Positions 14,717 to 21,823 of a DNA stretch of 64,000 nt are shown one piece after another (position 1 is the first letter of the stretch; each line of letters opens with the position of its first letter). The translations under genes and the position numbers were made by a program. Source of the DNA: Clostridiales bacterium (GTDB taxonomy: Bacteria; Bacillota; Clostridia; Saccharofermentanales; Saccharofermentanaceae); assembly GCA_017427465.1 (NCBI GenBank), contig JAFRST010000036.1:1-64000 (forward strand). Reading direction: 5' to 3'. Below the pieces are notes generated by a model. That model was not told the DNA's origin, searched no databases, and was given only the letters and a program-made list of their open reading frames with translations.

Positions 14717-15641
14717 AGTTTGCAACACATACACGCTAAATGACCTGCCTCTGGGTACAAAAGGCAGAGTGATCGCTTTGGGCCTTTTTGACGGGCTTCA
14801 CATGGGACACATGGACATCATTAAGAAGGCTGTTGCGATAGCGGAAAGGGACGGGCTTACGTCGACTGTCCAGACTTTTAAGCATCTCAACAAATATGAC
14901 ACCAAATCGCTTTACACATCCGAAGAGAGAACAAAGATCATCGAAGAGATAGGCGCGGACGAGATACTTGTGCTGGACTTCGATGAATTAAAGGATACGG
15001 AGCCCGAGCTGTTCCTGTCGAATATTATTTCCGCGCGCTGCATCGCCGATACGGTCATCGTAGGAGAGGATTACCGCTTCGGACGCAATGCAAGAGGCAA
15101 CGTTACCATGATCGAGGAGTTCTGTGATACGAATGAGATCAGGCTCATCGTGGTAAAAGACCGCATGCTCGAAGGCACGGATAAGAAGATATCCACGATG
15201 TGGCTGCGTAAGACTCTTGCTGACGGCGATGTTGATCTTGCAAGGGACCTTTGCGGCGGAAGAAATTATGTTTATTCCGGCCGCGTCGTTCAGGGCAAGA
15301 TGCTCGGCAGAGAAATGGGTTTCCCCACTGTCAATATCATTGTGCCTGAAGGAAAATTTGTTGTCAGAAGAGGTGTTTATGTGTCGCGTGTTCATCTGGG
15401 ACCGAGAGTCCTTTACGGCGTTACCAATATCGGCAGAAGACCTACGGTGGAAGATGCGGTAAATGATGTTGTTGAGACTTATATTTTCGACTTCGACGAA
15501 GACATTTACGGCGCTCAAATATCGGTCGAACTGATGCATTTTTTGAGAGCCGAGACGCAGTATCCGTCAAAAGAAGAGCTTATCGGTGCTGTAAACCGCA
15601 ATAAAGAGCAGGCTCTGGAATATATCAAAAACCTCATTTAG
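14709..15641 (+). CDS. ribF: Bifunctional riboflavin kinase / FAD synthetase
   Basis: 310 residues. RibF phosphorylates riboflavin to FMN and adenylylates FMN to FAD. The N-terminal nucleotidyltransferase has GLFDGLHMGH and RFGRNARGN. The C-terminal kinase domain has GREMGFPTVNI, RRGVYVS and GVTNIGRRPTV. It is the last gene of the long nusA operon; about 95 bases without a gene follow before lgt. Confidence 0.95.
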   Translation: MIKVCNTYTLNDLPLGTKGRVIALGLFDGLHMGHMDIIKKAVAIAERDGLTSTVQTFKHLNKYDTKSLYTSEERTKIIEEIGADEILVLDFDELKDTEPELFLSNIISARCIADTVIVGEDYRFGRNARGNVTMIEEFCDTNEIRLIVVKDRMLEGTDKKISTMWLRKTLADGDVDLARDLCGGRNYVYSGRVVQGKMLGREMGFPTVNIIVPEGKFVVRRGVYVSRVHLGPRVLYGVTNIGRRPTVEDAVNDVVETYIFDFDEDIYGAQISVELMHFLRAETQYPSKEELIGAVNRNKEQALEYIKNLI

Positions 15642-15737
15642 ACCGCGAAATGATACCTTAAAAGCCATATACTTTATTTTGTGGTAATATATCAAGGATT
15701 TGAACGGCCCATCGAGGGGCATGGAGGATAAGGACAA

Positions 15738-16622
15738 ATGATAAGTGCAGTTGAAGTTAAGTTTCCGGGATGGGGGATCAACATTGATGTTAACCCGGTA
15801 GCGTTTCACCTCGGCAAGATCGAGGTTTATTGGTACGGGCTCCTGATCGCGGTCGCGATCGTTCTGGCCGTAGTGCTCGCTGTAAAGCAGGCCAAGAGCC
15901 TGAATTTTCCCGAGAGCCTCGTATACGATACGATCCTCATGATCATTCCGTGCGCGATAATCGGCGCGAGGGCATATTATGTCATATTCAACTGGGATGA
16001 GTTTAAGGGTGACTTCAAGAGCGTATTCGATGTCAGGTCAGGCGGACTTGCTATTTATGGAGGAGTAATCCTCGTATTCATCGGCGGACTTGTCATGTGC
16101 CGCATCAGAAAGATCCCTTTCAGGGAGCTTGCTGACTATTGTGTCGTTTACCTTCCCTTGGGACAGGCTATCGGCAGATGGGGCAACTTCTTTAACCAGG
16201 AAGCATTCGGTACGACAACAAATCTTCCGTGGGGTATGACCAGCAGCACGGTAGAGGCATATCTGAACCGTTTCTGTCCGACACTTGTTGCTACACAGCC
16301 GGTTCATCCCACTTTCCTTTATGAGTCAATTGCAGATCTTGCGATCTTCTTTATCCTGCTCTACATCAGAAAGCGTTCCAAGATCTCTTTCGAGACATCA
16401 TGCGCTTATTTCGTACTTTACGGAATAGTAAGGTTCTTCATTGAAGGGCTCAGAACCGATTCGCTTTATGTCGGTCATACAAGCATCAGAGTATCGCAGC
16501 TCTTATCTCTCGTTTTAGTCGTTGCAGCGCTCATTTATATCGCTGTAGCAAGAAGCAAGAGATGGGAGAAGAGACCGTTCCCTGCAAAACTCTATGCTGA
16601 AGCAGGAGAAGGAAAGAAATAA
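15738..16622 (+). CDS. lgt: Prolipoprotein diacylglyceryl transferase
   Basis: 294 residues, about seven transmembrane segments. Lgt transfers diacylglycerol from phosphatidylglycerol to the lipobox cysteine of prolipoproteins at the membrane. The Lgt signature GRWGNFFNQEAFG is intact, as are WYGLLIA near the start and HPTFLYES. At least three lipobox proteins elsewhere in the window would be substrates. Ribosome site GGAGGA. rodA follows two bases after the stop. Confidence 0.95.
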   Translation: MISAVEVKFPGWGINIDVNPVAFHLGKIEVYWYGLLIAVAIVLAVVLAVKQAKSLNFPESLVYDTILMIIPCAIIGARAYYVIFNWDEFKGDFKSVFDVRSGGLAIYGGVILVFIGGLVMCRIRKIPFRELADYCVVYLPLGQAIGRWGNFFNQEAFGTTTNLPWGMTSSTVEAYLNRFCPTLVATQPVHPTFLYESIADLAIFFILLYIRKRSKISFETSCAYFVLYGIVRFFIEGLRTDSLYVGHTSIRVSQLLSLVLVVAALIYIAVARSKRWEKRPFPAKLYAEAGEGKK

Positions 16623-16624
16623 TA

Positions 16625-17752
16625 ATGGGCAATGCAGGTTCCGGCGTAGTCAGACTCCGCGGGAAAGACGGTCTTAAAGCCGTCGACTATTATCTTGTCG
16701 TGCCGATCCTGGCAATGACGATAATAGGCCTCTTTGTTCTTCAGAAAGTTTTATCCAAAGGATATGCTGCTTACCCGGGCAACTATTACAGACAGATAGC
16801 TGCTACTGTCGGCGGCATTCTTGGAGCATTGATACTCAGTCTTCTCGATTCTCACTTCATGAAGATCGTCGGACGTATCATTTATATCGTGTCGCTCCTT
16901 CTTTTGATCCTTGTCCCGATCGACGGTTATTCACTGGTCGCCACTTGGGGTGCGGATTCATGGCTCAAGCTTCCCGTTATTGGCAACTTCCAGCCGTCAG
17001 AGCTTGCAAAGCTCGGCCTTATCATGGTTGCTGCCGATATATTCGAGCGAATGGGCAACAAGGAATACACGATCCTAAAAGGTTTTGGCGTAATGGCGGC
17101 CTTCTATGCGCCTCCGATGCTCCTTATCCTTTTGCAGCCTGACTTCGGTACCGCGATGGTTATCGCGTTCACCTTCGTCTGCATGCTGTTCGCCTGGGGA
17201 GTAAGATACAGATACTTCCTTCTGGCGTTCTCATTCTTTGTCGTTGTAGTTATTCCTGCAGTGTGGACCTTTTATCTTAAGCCTTATCAGAAGGACAGGA
17301 TCCTGTCGCTTGCGTTCCAGGGATCTGACCCTAGATCGGAGTATAACCTCATGCAGTCCAAAGCGGCTATCGCTTCCGGCGGACTTACGGGCAACCATAC
17401 GGGAATCCTGACTACAGTTCCGGTTAAGGAGAGTGACTTTATTTTCGCTGCCATATCGGAACACATGGGATTCATCGGAACGACTGTGGTAATAATCCTT
17501 GCATTTTTCTTTCTGTGCAGATGTCTTTATGTTGCGGCCAAGACACCGTCGAAGACTGCGGCTTACACTATCACGGGATTTACGGGATACTTCGCATTCC
17601 ACTTTATCGAGAACATGGGCATGGCAGTAGGACTTCTTCCGATAACCGGTATTCCGCTGCCTTTTATCAGCCTGGGAGGTACGTCGATGCTGATCAATTT
17701 CCTTGCGTTCGGCGTCATCCTGAACTATTCGATGTCGCGCAACATAACATAG
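16625..17752 (+). CDS. rodA: RodA-type SEDS peptidoglycan polymerase
   Basis: 375 residues, about ten transmembrane segments. SEDS proteins polymerise lipid II into glycan strands together with a class B PBP; RodA does so during elongation. Motifs: SWLKLPVIGNFQPSELAK, DFGTAMV, and the C-terminal GIPLPFISLGGTSML. It is assigned as RodA rather than FtsW because a second paralogue lies inside the division cluster at 28.2 kb. It is tightly linked to lgt and to the GH32-PfkB gene. Confidence 0.9.
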   Translation: MGNAGSGVVRLRGKDGLKAVDYYLVVPILAMTIIGLFVLQKVLSKGYAAYPGNYYRQIAATVGGILGALILSLLDSHFMKIVGRIIYIVSLLLLILVPIDGYSLVATWGADSWLKLPVIGNFQPSELAKLGLIMVAADIFERMGNKEYTILKGFGVMAAFYAPPMLLILLQPDFGTAMVIAFTFVCMLFAWGVRYRYFLLAFSFFVVVVIPAVWTFYLKPYQKDRILSLAFQGSDPRSEYNLMQSKAAIASGGLTGNHTGILTTVPVKESDFIFAAISEHMGFIGTTVVIILAFFFLCRCLYVAAKTPSKTAAYTITGFTGYFAFHFIENMGMAVGLLPITGIPLPFISLGGTSMLINFLAFGVILNYSMSRNIT

Positions 17753-17761
17753 GAGTGATCC

Positions 17762-20023
17762 GTGGACCGCAAATGGAGACAGAATCTTCATATCGAGGCG
17801 CCGGAAGGCTGGCTCAACGACCCGAACGGTCTGTGTTATTTTGACGGCTTCTATCACGTATATTTTCAATATTCGCCGGGTACTCCCAAGGGCGAAGCAA
17901 CCAGATGCTGGGGTCATTATGTGAGCACGGATCTTCTCTCTTGGAAATACAAGGGCATCGTTCTTTATCCGGATATTCCGGAAGACCGTAACGGTGTGTT
18001 CTCCGGTTCTGCGGTTGCATTTAACGATCACATCGAATTCTTCTACACGGGCAACGTGGAAGAGGAAGGCCCGTATGATTATGTGCTCGAGGGCAGGGGC
18101 GCCAACGTAATAACTGTCACTTCTTCTGACGGTGATAAGATGTCTGCCAAAAAAGTCCTTCTTAAGAATTCTGATTATCCTGATTTTTGTTCATGCCACG
18201 TAAGAGATCCAAAGGTATGGATCGAAAACGGGATTTACAAGATGGTGCTTGGCGCACGGACTGTCGATGACAAAGGATCAGTTCTGCTCTATGAAGGAGC
18301 TTCTCCTGATTCGTTCAGATACGCCGGAAGTCTCACTATTCCCGACATGGGATATATGTGGGAGTGTCCTGATATGTTTACGCTTGAAGGAAAGACATTC
18401 CTTGCTTTATGTCCTCAAGGTACTAAGCGCGGAGAGTTCTCTTTCCAGAATATCTTCCACAGCGGATATTTTAATTTGGACGGCGAAAAGCTCTCAGGCT
18501 TCGAAGAGTTCGATTACGGTTTTGATTTCTATGCGCCTCAGACGTTTATAGCTCCAGACGGAAGGAGACTTCTGATCGGATGGATGGGCATAGGCGATGA
18601 TGCATATACTAATCCGACTATCGGGCTCGGCTGGCAGCATTGCCTGACATTGCCCCGTGAACTGACTGTCTCACCTGAAGGCAAGCTCCTGCAAAATCCC
18701 ATCCGCGAATTAGAAAGCCTTAAGCGTTCATCAAGGAAGATAGAAGGTGAAGCATGGGAAAGCCTGCCGTTTGAGGTCAGTGCTGCCGGATTTGCCGACA
18801 GGGCAACTGTCACGATATCGGGCGCGTCTGTCTCGTGGGACAAAGAAAGCGGCATCTTAAGTCTCAGGCTTAATGAAGAAGGTTACGGAAGAAAAGTCCG
18901 CAATCTGAAGCTTTCTTCACTTGAGAATGTCCTAATCATTGCAGACAGATCTTCATTGGAAATTTATATAAATAACGGTCTATATGTCATGAGCACCAGA
19001 TTCTATCCTGAGTACCGCCAGGTAAGAGTCGCAACAGAAGGCGCTTCGGCTGAAGTAGCCCGGCTGAGATTAAACGATACCCTTATTGCGATCGGCGAGG
19101 CGCTGATCGATTTTATACCTGACAAGAAGGGCTGCGAGTTTTATGAAGTAGGATCATTCTCTCCTGCAACGGGCGGCGCTCCGGCAAATGTCTGCGGAGC
19201 ATTCTCCAAGCTCGGCGGCAAGGCCCGCATGATCACTCAGCTCGGCAATGACCCTTTTGGTGATGTGATAACGAGAACTCTTAATGATGCCGGTGTGGAT
19301 ACTTCATGCATACGCTATACGTCAGCAGCTAATACGGCGCTCGCTTTTGTAAGCCATACGGTTGAAGGTAAGAGCACGTATTCTTTCTACAGGAATCCGT
19401 CTGCTGATATGCTTTTCGAGGCGTCTGACGTGACAAGCGAGATGCTTGACGACTGTTATGCCCTGCATTTCTGCAGTGTGTCTCTGGGTGATTTCCCGAT
19501 GAAGGATGCTCACCGTGCCGCAATAACCATCGCGAGAAGACAAGGCGCTATCGTGAGCTTCGATCCCAATCTGAGGTTTATGCTCTGGGATGACAAGGAA
19601 GAATTAAAGCATGTGATACAGGAATTTATCCCTGACTGCGACATATTGAAGATCTCCGATGAGGAGTTGGAGTTCATTACGGGTACATCTGTGATAGAAG
19701 AGGCGTTGCCTTCATTGTTCACAGGCAACGTCAAGCTCGTGATCCTCACCAAAGGCAAGGACGGCGCAGATGCCTATACCGCATCGGTTAAAGTAGCTTC
19801 CGCGGGTCGTGCTGTTAATGTCGTGGATACCACCGGTGCAGGCGACGGCTTCATCGGCTCGTTTCTTTGGAAGCTCAAGTCTTCGGGCATCGGCAGGGAA
19901 GAAGTTTCCTCGTGCCCTGTTAGCATTCTTAAAGAATGCCTGGATTTTGCCAACCGTTTCAGCGCCATCAGCGTCCAAAGGAAGGGCGCAATCCCGTCAT
20001 ATCCTGAACTTAAAGAGATGTAA
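17762..20023 (+). CDS. Fused GH32 sucrose(-6-phosphate) hydrolase and PfkB fructokinase
   Basis: 753 residues in one unbroken frame. Residues 1-435 are a complete GH32 enzyme: WLNDPNG with nucleophile Asp20, RDPKVW (stabilising Asp ~149), WECPDMF with acid/base Glu201, then the beta-sandwich containing DRSSLEIYINNG. Residues ~440-753 are a PfkB sugar kinase: GEALIDFIP, GGAPANVCGAFSKLGG and DTTGAGDGF with catalytic Asp ~696. The inferred pathway is hydrolysis of sucrose or sucrose-6-phosphate, then phosphorylation of released fructose to fructose-6-phosphate, in the cytoplasm since no signal peptide exists. GTG start with AGGAG five bases before. No sugar transporter or regulator lies nearby; it follows rodA by nine bases. 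Confidence 0.93.
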   Translation: MDRKWRQNLHIEAPEGWLNDPNGLCYFDGFYHVYFQYSPGTPKGEATRCWGHYVSTDLLSWKYKGIVLYPDIPEDRNGVFSGSAVAFNDHIEFFYTGNVEEEGPYDYVLEGRGANVITVTSSDGDKMSAKKVLLKNSDYPDFCSCHVRDPKVWIENGIYKMVLGARTVDDKGSVLLYEGASPDSFRYAGSLTIPDMGYMWECPDMFTLEGKTFLALCPQGTKRGEFSFQNIFHSGYFNLDGEKLSGFEEFDYGFDFYAPQTFIAPDGRRLLIGWMGIGDDAYTNPTIGLGWQHCLTLPRELTVSPEGKLLQNPIRELESLKRSSRKIEGEAWESLPFEVSAAGFADRATVTISGASVSWDKESGILSLRLNEEGYGRKVRNLKLSSLENVLIIADRSSLEIYINNGLYVMSTRFYPEYRQVRVATEGASAEVARLRLNDTLIAIGEALIDFIPDKKGCEFYEVGSFSPATGGAPANVCGAFSKLGGKARMITQLGNDPFGDVITRTLNDAGVDTSCIRYTSAANTALAFVSHTVEGKSTYSFYRNPSADMLFEASDVTSEMLDDCYALHFCSVSLGDFPMKDAHRAAITIARRQGAIVSFDPNLRFMLWDDKEELKHVIQEFIPDCDILKISDEELEFITGTSVIEEALPSLFTGNVKLVILTKGKDGADAYTASVKVASAGRAVNVVDTTGAGDGFIGSFLWKLKSSGIGREEVSSCPVSILKECLDFANRFSAISVQRKGAIPSYPELKEM

Positions 20024-20296
20024 GTGCCTGCTTGCGATAAAAGCACAGGTGTCTGAGTATGATCTGCGGCTAAAAGCTGATTGCAGAGCATGATTTGAGG
20101 CGAAATTTGCGGCCGCAGCCTCAAAAAACCCCTCGTTTTTATTCCGACAGCTGTAAATTGAGGCAAAATTCGCGGTTACAGCCTCAAAAGACACCTCATT
20201 TTTGCCCTGAAACCTGTGATCCGGCGCGGTTTTTCGTGCCTTTTTGGCACCTGGAAAAAATATTTAACAAATTTCCAAAAAATGACAAAAAACCCC
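20024..20296. other. Non-coding stretch between GH32-PfkB and mraZ promoter
   Basis: No credible gene. It holds two imperfect 63-bp repeats (separate entry), a small GTGCC-T5-GGCAC hairpin at 20236-20250, and an A-rich tract before the mraZ promoter. No classical terminator is obvious for the lgt-rodA-GH32 unit, though the repeat hairpins could act as one. Confidence 0.6.
20097..20222 (+). repeat. Two imperfect 63-bp tandem repeats with internal hairpins
   Basis: Copies at 20097-20159 and 20160-20222 match at about 45 of 63 positions, best in the first 30. Each contains an inverted repeat in which TTGAGGC or TTTGAGGC pairs with GCCTCAA about 15 bases later. A weaker trace of the same pattern precedes the first copy. 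Confidence 0.7.
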
Positions 20297-20325
20297 TTGC
20301 GTTAAAAAAAGATTACGAATAGAAT
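20297..20325 (+). promoter_or_regulatory. mraZ promoter
   Basis: TTGCGT, 17-bp spacer, TAGAAT. The start would lie near 20332, about 108 bases before mraZ. Confidence 0.7.
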
Positions 20326-20333
20326 ACAGATGT

Positions 20334-20378
20334 GTGGTGATTAGGGGAGATATTTCCCATTCTGGTGGAGGAAAGTGG
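20334..20378 (+). promoter_or_regulatory. Candidate MraZ operator boxes
   Basis: GTGG or GGGG appears at 20334, 20344, 20365 and 20375, giving ten-base steps within each pair. MraZ is known to bind several short GTGG-type direct repeats with about ten-base spacing upstream of its own gene. The boxes lie just after the predicted transcription start. Confidence 0.45.
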
Positions 20379-20439
20379 CTCAAATGAGACCGCAATCCTC
20401 GCTTAACCGCATAATCAAGCAAAAAACGAAAGATTCAGG

Positions 20440-20871
20440 ATGAGAGACATTAAGAAAGTAGACGCTAAGGGAAGATTTTTTATCCCTTCAAAGCAGAAAG
20501 AACTGCTTGGCTCTGAGGTTGTTGTAACTAATAGCCTTGATGTCGGCTATCTTTGCGTTTACTCCAAGGATCATTTTGAGAACGTCGTAAAAACACAGCT
20601 TGCAAAACTCAACACCATGGATGCCAATGCCCGTAAGATCAAGAGGGCGATCATTGGTGAAGCCTGCGAAGTGAGCGTTGATTCACAGGGCAGGATCTCA
20701 GTTAACAGCGAGCTCTGGGACAGGATCGGTGCCAAGCCCGGTGACGAGATCTGCGTATTTAATGATGACGGCAAATTAGACATCTGCACGAAGAATTTCT
20801 ATGACAACGAGGATCACGACTTGAGCAGCATAGAAGGATTGGAGACAAAGTATTATGTTGAAGGTCTCTGA
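20440..20871 (+). CDS. mraZ: MraZ, transcriptional regulator of the division cluster
   Basis: 143 residues. MraZ is a ring-forming DNA-binding protein that represses its own operon in studied species. Two SpoVT/AbrB-like halves are visible, each with a DxxGR motif (KVDAKGRFFIPSK and SVDSQGRISVNSE). The ribosome site is weak. The gene overlaps rsmH by 17 bases, the standard arrangement. Confidence 0.94.
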   Translation: MRDIKKVDAKGRFFIPSKQKELLGSEVVVTNSLDVGYLCVYSKDHFENVVKTQLAKLNTMDANARKIKRAIIGEACEVSVDSQGRISVNSELWDRIGAKPGDEICVFNDDGKLDICTKNFYDNEDHDLSSIEGLETKYYVEGL

Positions 20872-21823
20872 TTTTGACCACATCCCGGTGCTTCTTTATC
20901 AGACGGTTGACGCGCTTAACGTCAAACCCGGCGGAATCTATGTCGACTGCACGGCCGGCGGCGGTTCGCACAGCGCTGAGATCGCAAGAAGAATGAAGGG
21001 CAACGGTATCCTTATCTCTATCGATAAAGATGATGCTGCTCTCGCTGCATGCATGGAGAGAAGAGAGAGCTTTGAAGGTATCGACTGGATGCCTGTTAAG
21101 TCTGATTACAAAGATATCGATGACATCATCAGAAGCCTCAAGGTGGGCAAGGTCGACGGCATCATGGCTGACCTCGGCGTATCGTCATATCAGCTCGATA
21201 CGGCAGAGAGAGGCTTCTCATATATGAAAAACGGTCCTTTGGACATGAGAATGGATCCTGATGAATGGCTTACTGCAGCAGAAGTCGTAAACAAGTATTC
21301 AAGAGATGATCTCGAGAGGATCTTCAGAGAGTACGGCGAAGAACATCATGCGGGCAGGATCGCTGACGGTATCTGTGAAAGAAGAAAAACAAGACCTTTC
21401 ACAAGGACCACAGAACTTGCGAACGCTATCAAGGAATACATGCCGGGCCACGGAAGAGGCGAAGACCAGCATCCCGCAAAGAGATGCTTCCAGGCCATAA
21501 GAATAGAAGTTAACCACGAGCTTGACGGTCTCCAGTCACTGCTCCAGGACGGAATAAGGAAGCTTAAACCGGGCGGAAGATTCGCGGTGATCTCATTCCA
21601 TTCACTGGAAGACCGTCTCGTAAAAGAAGCATTCAGAACGGCAGAAAGCCCCTGCACATGCCCCAGAGATTTTCCTGTATGTGTTTGCGGTAAGAAATCA
21701 CTTGGTACGGTCATAACAAAGAAACCGATCGAGCCGACTGAAGAAGAGATCGAGATCAATCCGAGATCCAGAAGTTCAAAGCTCAGGGTGTTTGAGAGGA
21801 ACGATAACGAACAGTACAACTGA
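20855..21823 (+). CDS. rsmH: 16S rRNA (cytosine-1402-N4)-methyltransferase RsmH
   Basis: 322 residues, formerly MraW. It methylates N4 of C1402 in the decoding centre using S-adenosylmethionine. Motifs: PVLLYQTVDAL at the start, DCTAGGGSHSAEI (SAM binding), MADLGVSSYQLD, GFSY, and the C-terminal RSRSSKLRVFER. Length is normal. Confidence 0.96.
   Translation: MLKVSDFDHIPVLLYQTVDALNVKPGGIYVDCTAGGGSHSAEIARRMKGNGILISIDKDDAALAACMERRESFEGIDWMPVKSDYKDIDDIIRSLKVGKVDGIMADLGVSSYQLDTAERGFSYMKNGPLDMRMDPDEWLTAAEVVNKYSRDDLERIFREYGEEHHAGRIADGICERRKTRPFTRTTELANAIKEYMPGHGRGEDQHPAKRCFQAIRIEVNHELDGLQSLLQDGIRKLKPGGRFAVISFHSLEDRLVKEAFRTAESPCTCPRDFPVCVCGKKSLGTVITKKPIEPTEEEIEINPRSRSSKLRVFERNDNEQYN

Follow-up and report, generated by a model that had tools for sequence, protein, structure and literature searches.

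The 64,000-nucleotide stretch of DNA analyzed here (contig JAFRST010000036.1 of the Clostridiales bacterium assembly GCA_017427465.1; referred to as the window) contains a single gene for a GH32 sucrose hydrolase and a PfkB fructokinase. The evidence as a whole is probably best explained by a fusion of scrB and scrK, carried by a lineage without a sucrose PTS and expressed with lgt and rodA, whose product would hydrolyze free sucrose and phosphorylate fructose. The locus is a clear example from nature of neighboring genes in an operon having merged into one enzyme.

The fused scrB-scrK gene occupies positions 17762 to 20023 of the forward strand as a single intact open reading frame of 753 amino acids, from a GTG start at 17762 to a TAA stop at 20021 to 20023. 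The N-terminal propeller domain of its GH32 half (amino acids 10 to 313; 17789 to 18700, forward strand; Pfam PF00251, Glyco_hydro_32N, E = 4e-77) carries the catalytic residues D20, D149, and E201 within the motifs NDPNG (D20), RDP (148 to 150), and EC (E201). It is followed by the C-terminal beta-sandwich (amino acids 327 to 436; 18740 to 19069, forward strand; PF08244, Glyco_hydro_32C, E = 7e-8), by a junction of four residues (amino acids 437 to 440; 19070 to 19081, forward strand) flanked by modeled strands at 429 to 435 and 440 to 444, and by the PfkB fructokinase domain (amino acids 441 to 749; 19082 to 20008, forward strand; PF00294, E = 8e-55), with the motifs GGAPAN (471) and DTTGAGD (689 to 695). 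In alignments, the motifs of both halves are almost invariant among relatives, and the linker between the halves amounts to about 4 residues. The Pfam domain scan found no binding module in the protein. These observations agree with the initial annotation, which had described both catalytic sets as intact in one frame with practically no linker. An AlphaFold model of the fusion was confident over its whole length (pLDDT 92.5, pTM 0.88), and Foldseek matched it to GH32 enzymes (7vco, 6nu7, and 1uyp) and to a fructokinase. The N-terminal half thus combines a GH32N domain with the NDPNG, RDP, and EC motifs that mark the family, while the kinase half combines the PfkB domain and its two motifs with fructokinases as the nearest solved structures (best PDB match, 5ey7; E = 6e-51). 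Against the NCBIfam fructokinase equivalog NF006957, the kinase half scored 212.9 bits, below the cut-off of 450, and this was still its top-scoring NCBIfam model. By homology, we predict a bifunctional sucrose hydrolase and fructokinase.

Relatives carry scrB and scrK side by side, so an assembly error that merged two neighboring genes could produce such a frame, a caveat that the initial annotation had itself raised. The probability of this is practically nil: the same fusion is present in one frame in 39 of 85 genomes sampled from the genus (labeled Saccharofermentans in public records), with one of the 39 copies truncated where its contig ends, and purifying selection acts on the junction. 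Across 61 pairs of fused genes found behind rodA (80 to 97% amino acid identity), pN/pS was 0.16 for GH32, 0.16 for the junction, and 0.13 for PfkB. Because the value at the junction matches those of the domains, the junction must be translated and constrained in the way the remainder of the protein is.

The origin of the fusion can be traced through the outgroups. In Ruminococcus albus (L063 and L070) and other outgroups, scrB and scrK are separate genes inside an scrA-scrB-scrK-ptsH-ptsI operon, consistent with the earlier remark that the two are normally separate and next to a transporter. A junction alignment showed that unfused ScrB proteins have several additional C-terminal residues and that unfused kinases have their own start methionine. 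The ScrB tail is gone in the fusions, so that the beta-sandwich of the window protein ends without the final residues of its unfused relatives. The kinase methionine is replaced in the window protein, is still visible in one relative (L026, RLMNKDTLVAIGEA), and is retained at the junction in a group of PTS-linked fusions. Since the outgroups hold separate scrB and scrK genes in one operon, and since the ScrB tail is absent while the kinase methionine persists in L026 and the PTS-linked group, sequence comparison indicates that the fusion joined neighboring genes of the PTS sucrose operon when the first of them lost its terminal part. The proposed ancestral event would have turned these neighbors into one cytoplasmic bifunctional enzyme. 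As to whether this happened once or twice, the gene tree requires two changes and does not reject one fused clade (approximately unbiased [AU] test, P = 0.34); the junctions of the rodA-linked and PTS-linked fused groups differ in the alignment, whereas a location downstream of rodA is common to the first group and most of the second.

Fused genes in the genus fall into these two groups. The first, which includes the window, comprises 33 genomes with the fusion directly behind rodA; in a tree of lgt and rodA, it is found in 33 of the 43 genomes of one clade. The second comprises 6 genomes in which, wherever the surroundings are readable, the fusion lies between scrA and ptsH-ptsI (scrA-scrBK-ptsH-ptsI), and this operon is also downstream of rodA in 5 of the 6. 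Several sister genomes carry separate scrB and scrK genes elsewhere, and in most of these mraZ directly follows rodA. No genome in the genus set had both a rodA-linked fusion and a separate pair, which fits functional replacement. The nearest public records are rumen or gut metagenome genomes labeled Saccharofermentans or Clostridiales. The search for the same domain order elsewhere, proposed with the initial annotation, was productive within the genus only: among 391 genomes of the class and 398 of the phylum (slightly overlapping samples, about 780 genomes), no GH32-PfkB fusion free of an internal stop was found under strict E-value limits that very distant fusions could escape. Two candidates from outside the genus, G294 and G860, were rejected because the frame reads through a stop. 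A different unusual fusion was observed within the genus, a NUDIX domain joined in frame to the N terminus of a GH32 sucrose hydrolase (L104:7352-9079, genome G006).

In the window, the fused gene follows lgt (prolipoprotein diacylglyceryl transferase; 15738 to 16622, forward strand; PF01790) and rodA (FtsW/RodA/SpoVE family; 16625 to 17752, forward strand; PF01098) with gaps of 2 bases between lgt and rodA and 9 bases between rodA and the fusion, in line with the spacing within nine bases noted from the sequence at the outset. The rodA stop and a Shine-Dalgarno-like GGAG ahead of the GTG start lie at 17750 to 17761 (forward strand). This spacing is conserved: among the 22 relatives (window included) with a measurable distance between the end of rodA and the start of the fusion, 21 have 5 to 23 nt, mostly with a Shine-Dalgarno sequence, and one has 52 nt. 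Consensus scans of the stretch separating rodA from GH32 gave no terminator-like site, and those of 15000 to 20900 gave no promoter-like site on the forward strand; a promoter and a terminator ahead of the fusion had been named beforehand as evidence that would separate it from rodA. The short conserved gaps, the Shine-Dalgarno sequence, and the lack of a terminator-like site lend support to the suggestion that the enzyme is made with envelope genes, and cotranscription with lgt-rodA is probably the simplest reading. Because the gene stands behind lgt-rodA in a PTS-less lineage, it would probably be expressed together with them as a housekeeping gene. Downstream, a terminator-like hairpin with a T-run (20223 to 20240, forward strand; a consensus match only) precedes mraZ (20440 to 20871, forward strand), an open reading frame that adjoins rodA directly in relatives without the fusion and forms the right border of a site that varies behind rodA. 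Across the genus, this rodA-mraZ interval is either empty or holds the fusion, a sucrose PTS operon, or a PadR regulator together with a small membrane protein (L116-L119 and L183-L209).

We then considered the substrate of the GH32 half. A search for enzyme I (PF05524) gave hits in 14 of the 85 genomes, namely, all 6 with PTS-linked fusions, 4 of the 11 with separate adjacent genes, and 4 others. It gave no hit in the 33 genomes with a rodA-linked fusion, many of which are 97 to 99% complete, and the search for sucrose EIIBCA in these 33 yielded only weak EIIC-like matches (28 to 30%), from G041 and G253. The rodA-linked loci showed no remnants of a PTS. A PTS sucrose system elsewhere in the genome of the window (G000), for which the initial annotation had suggested looking, likewise did not emerge, neither enzyme I nor sucrose EIIBCA being found; this genome is 85% complete, and it is mainly the related genomes that support the absence. 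The associated sucrose PTS that characterizes the ScrB family was thus found neither in G000 (85% complete) nor in the 32 other rodA-linked genomes. Because enzyme I and sucrose EIIBCA were not found in these 33 genomes, the most likely substrate of the window enzyme is unphosphorylated sucrose, with glucose and fructose-6-phosphate as products. Of the two substrates originally put forward, sucrose is favored, and sucrose-6-phosphate has become less likely.

Family scores and one residue point in the same direction. Against the ScrB model TIGR01322, the whole window protein scored 349.1 and its GH32 half scored 351.7, just below the cut-off of 356.4, while the two PTS-linked relatives tested scored 361.1 and 385.0, both above it. 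In the tree set, all 10 scr-bearing genomes that have enzyme I share a Lys at position 48, and most of those without it have Arg there; this position aligns with Lys74 of the Lactobacillus gasseri sucrose-6-phosphate hydrolase (PMC7833758). These patterns agree with the PTS-less reading and are suggestive only, related genomes not being independent.

The same data bear on the alternative that the enzyme still cleaves sucrose-6-phosphate, supplied by an unrecognized PTS or a sucrose kinase, to glucose-6-phosphate and fructose-6-phosphate. The ancestral operon was PTS linked, the TIGR01322 score lies near the cut-off, and the Arg or Lys at position 48 resembles Lys74 of sucrose-6-phosphate hydrolases (PMC7833758), so that use of this substrate may persist through the retained basic residue. 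Gut Bacillota also have sucrose kinases (AgaSK; PMC7688924), and such a kinase could, by analogy, supply sucrose-6-phosphate without a PTS. A hydrolase of Fusobacterium mortiferum is reported to have a Km in the tens of millimolar for sucrose and below 1 mM for sucrose-6-phosphate (cited in PMC7833758), values that illustrate the preference expected under this alternative. However, enzyme I was detected in 0 of 33 rodA-linked genomes, many of them nearly complete as given above, and the GH36 protein of G000 is without a kinase domain, and we regard this alternative as unlikely.

It is very improbable that the enzyme serves chiefly to cleave some other fructoside, such as kestose, short fructans, or raffinose itself, with sucrose secondary. 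Sugars of this type are present in plant feed. Specificities overlap among GH32 enzymes (PMC7833758), but ScrB is the closest curated family, relatives are located in sucrose-type PTS operons, and, because the domain scan found no binding module, only imported oligosaccharides are relevant. A second GH32-like gene lies just after a serA-like gene in the same genome (L136:6919-7968, G000:C16); it encodes 349 amino acids, and most genomes of the genus have a counterpart. Its motifs are altered (WLGNPCGL for W.NDPNG and REP for RDP), it resembles in type the inactive "cluster 4" proteins (PMC7833758), and it is possibly not a sucrose hydrolase. Given the changed NDPNG and RDP motifs, it is unlikely to substitute for the fusion in G000.

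With free sucrose as the preferred substrate, the proposed pathway would begin with entry through a non-PTS carrier or with the intracellular release of sucrose from sugars of the raffinose type. The window's genome encodes several ABC sugar-binding proteins, but a carrier dedicated to sucrose was not identified. A galactoside cluster (L234:541-12001, G000:C18) contains galT and galK (both named from reading the sequence), a MelB-like GPH symporter, a GH36 alpha-galactosidase, and a beta-galactosidase-like gene; raffinose might be taken up and cleaved by GH36 to give free intracellular sucrose. The GH32 half would then split unphosphorylated sucrose into glucose and fructose, the PfkB half would use ATP to convert fructose to fructose-6-phosphate, and glucose would pass to a ROK-type glucokinase, two ROK kinases being encoded in G000.

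In addition to this reading, and not as an alternative to it, the fusion might truly channel fructose between its active sites. The near-zero linker, the confident overall arrangement of the model (its pTM is given above), and maintenance of the fusion across a clade are in line with channeling, which nonetheless seems doubtful: AgaSK showed similar kinetics whether whole or as separated domains, with no kinetic benefit from the union (PMC7688924), and the fusion is evidently not essential, because several sister genomes have separate scrB and scrK genes in its place. Any benefit beyond fixed 1:1 expression is something we infer. A fuller scenario, in which the lineage lost its sucrose PTS, kept a single constitutive protein tied to cell wall genes, shifted the GH32 half from sucrose-6-phosphate to sucrose, and channels fructose through the fusion, is quite unlikely to hold in every part. 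One genus holds versions with separate genes, with a PTS-linked fusion, and with a fusion lacking a PTS, which makes channeling testable against fixed stoichiometry, and likewise how a sucrose-6-phosphate hydrolase adapts after transporter loss. For genomes without a PTS, the automated label "sucrose-6-phosphate hydrolase" can mislead.

Compared with the scrA-scrB-scrK-ptsH-ptsI operons of R. albus, the window has both enzymes in equal order at 52 to 61% identity per domain. The R. albus operons have separate genes and a PTS transporter, whereas in the window the genes are fused behind lgt-rodA and no PTS was found. The L. gasseri sucrose-6-phosphate hydrolase (6nu7) and the Frischella perrara enzyme (7vco) share the GH32 fold and catalytic residues but are single-function proteins of about 490 amino acids, in contrast to the kinase fusion here. 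No published GH32-PfkB fusion was found in the literature searched, which mostly lay outside subscription journals. The nearest parallel in design is AgaSK of Ruminococcus gnavus E1, which unites a GH36 alpha-galactosidase and a sucrose kinase in one protein of a sucrose/raffinose locus (PMC7688924). Both are gut Bacillota proteins that combine a glycosidase with an ATP-dependent sugar kinase, a role that is predicted for the kinase here. Their domains are unrelated (GH32 and PfkB versus GH36 and sucrose kinase), and the window protein, which does not have the GH36 and sucrose-kinase domains of the AgaSK type, is an analogue of design only. In the IolC kinase-aldolase (NF047869) and KDPG aldolase-kinase (NF041633) fusions, PfkB is similarly joined to a partner from its own pathway, this partner being an aldolase there and a glycosidase in the window. 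Glycosidase-kinase and PfkB-partner fusions are already known, and the union of GH32 with PfkB is a variant of a well-known pathway rather than a new type of system.
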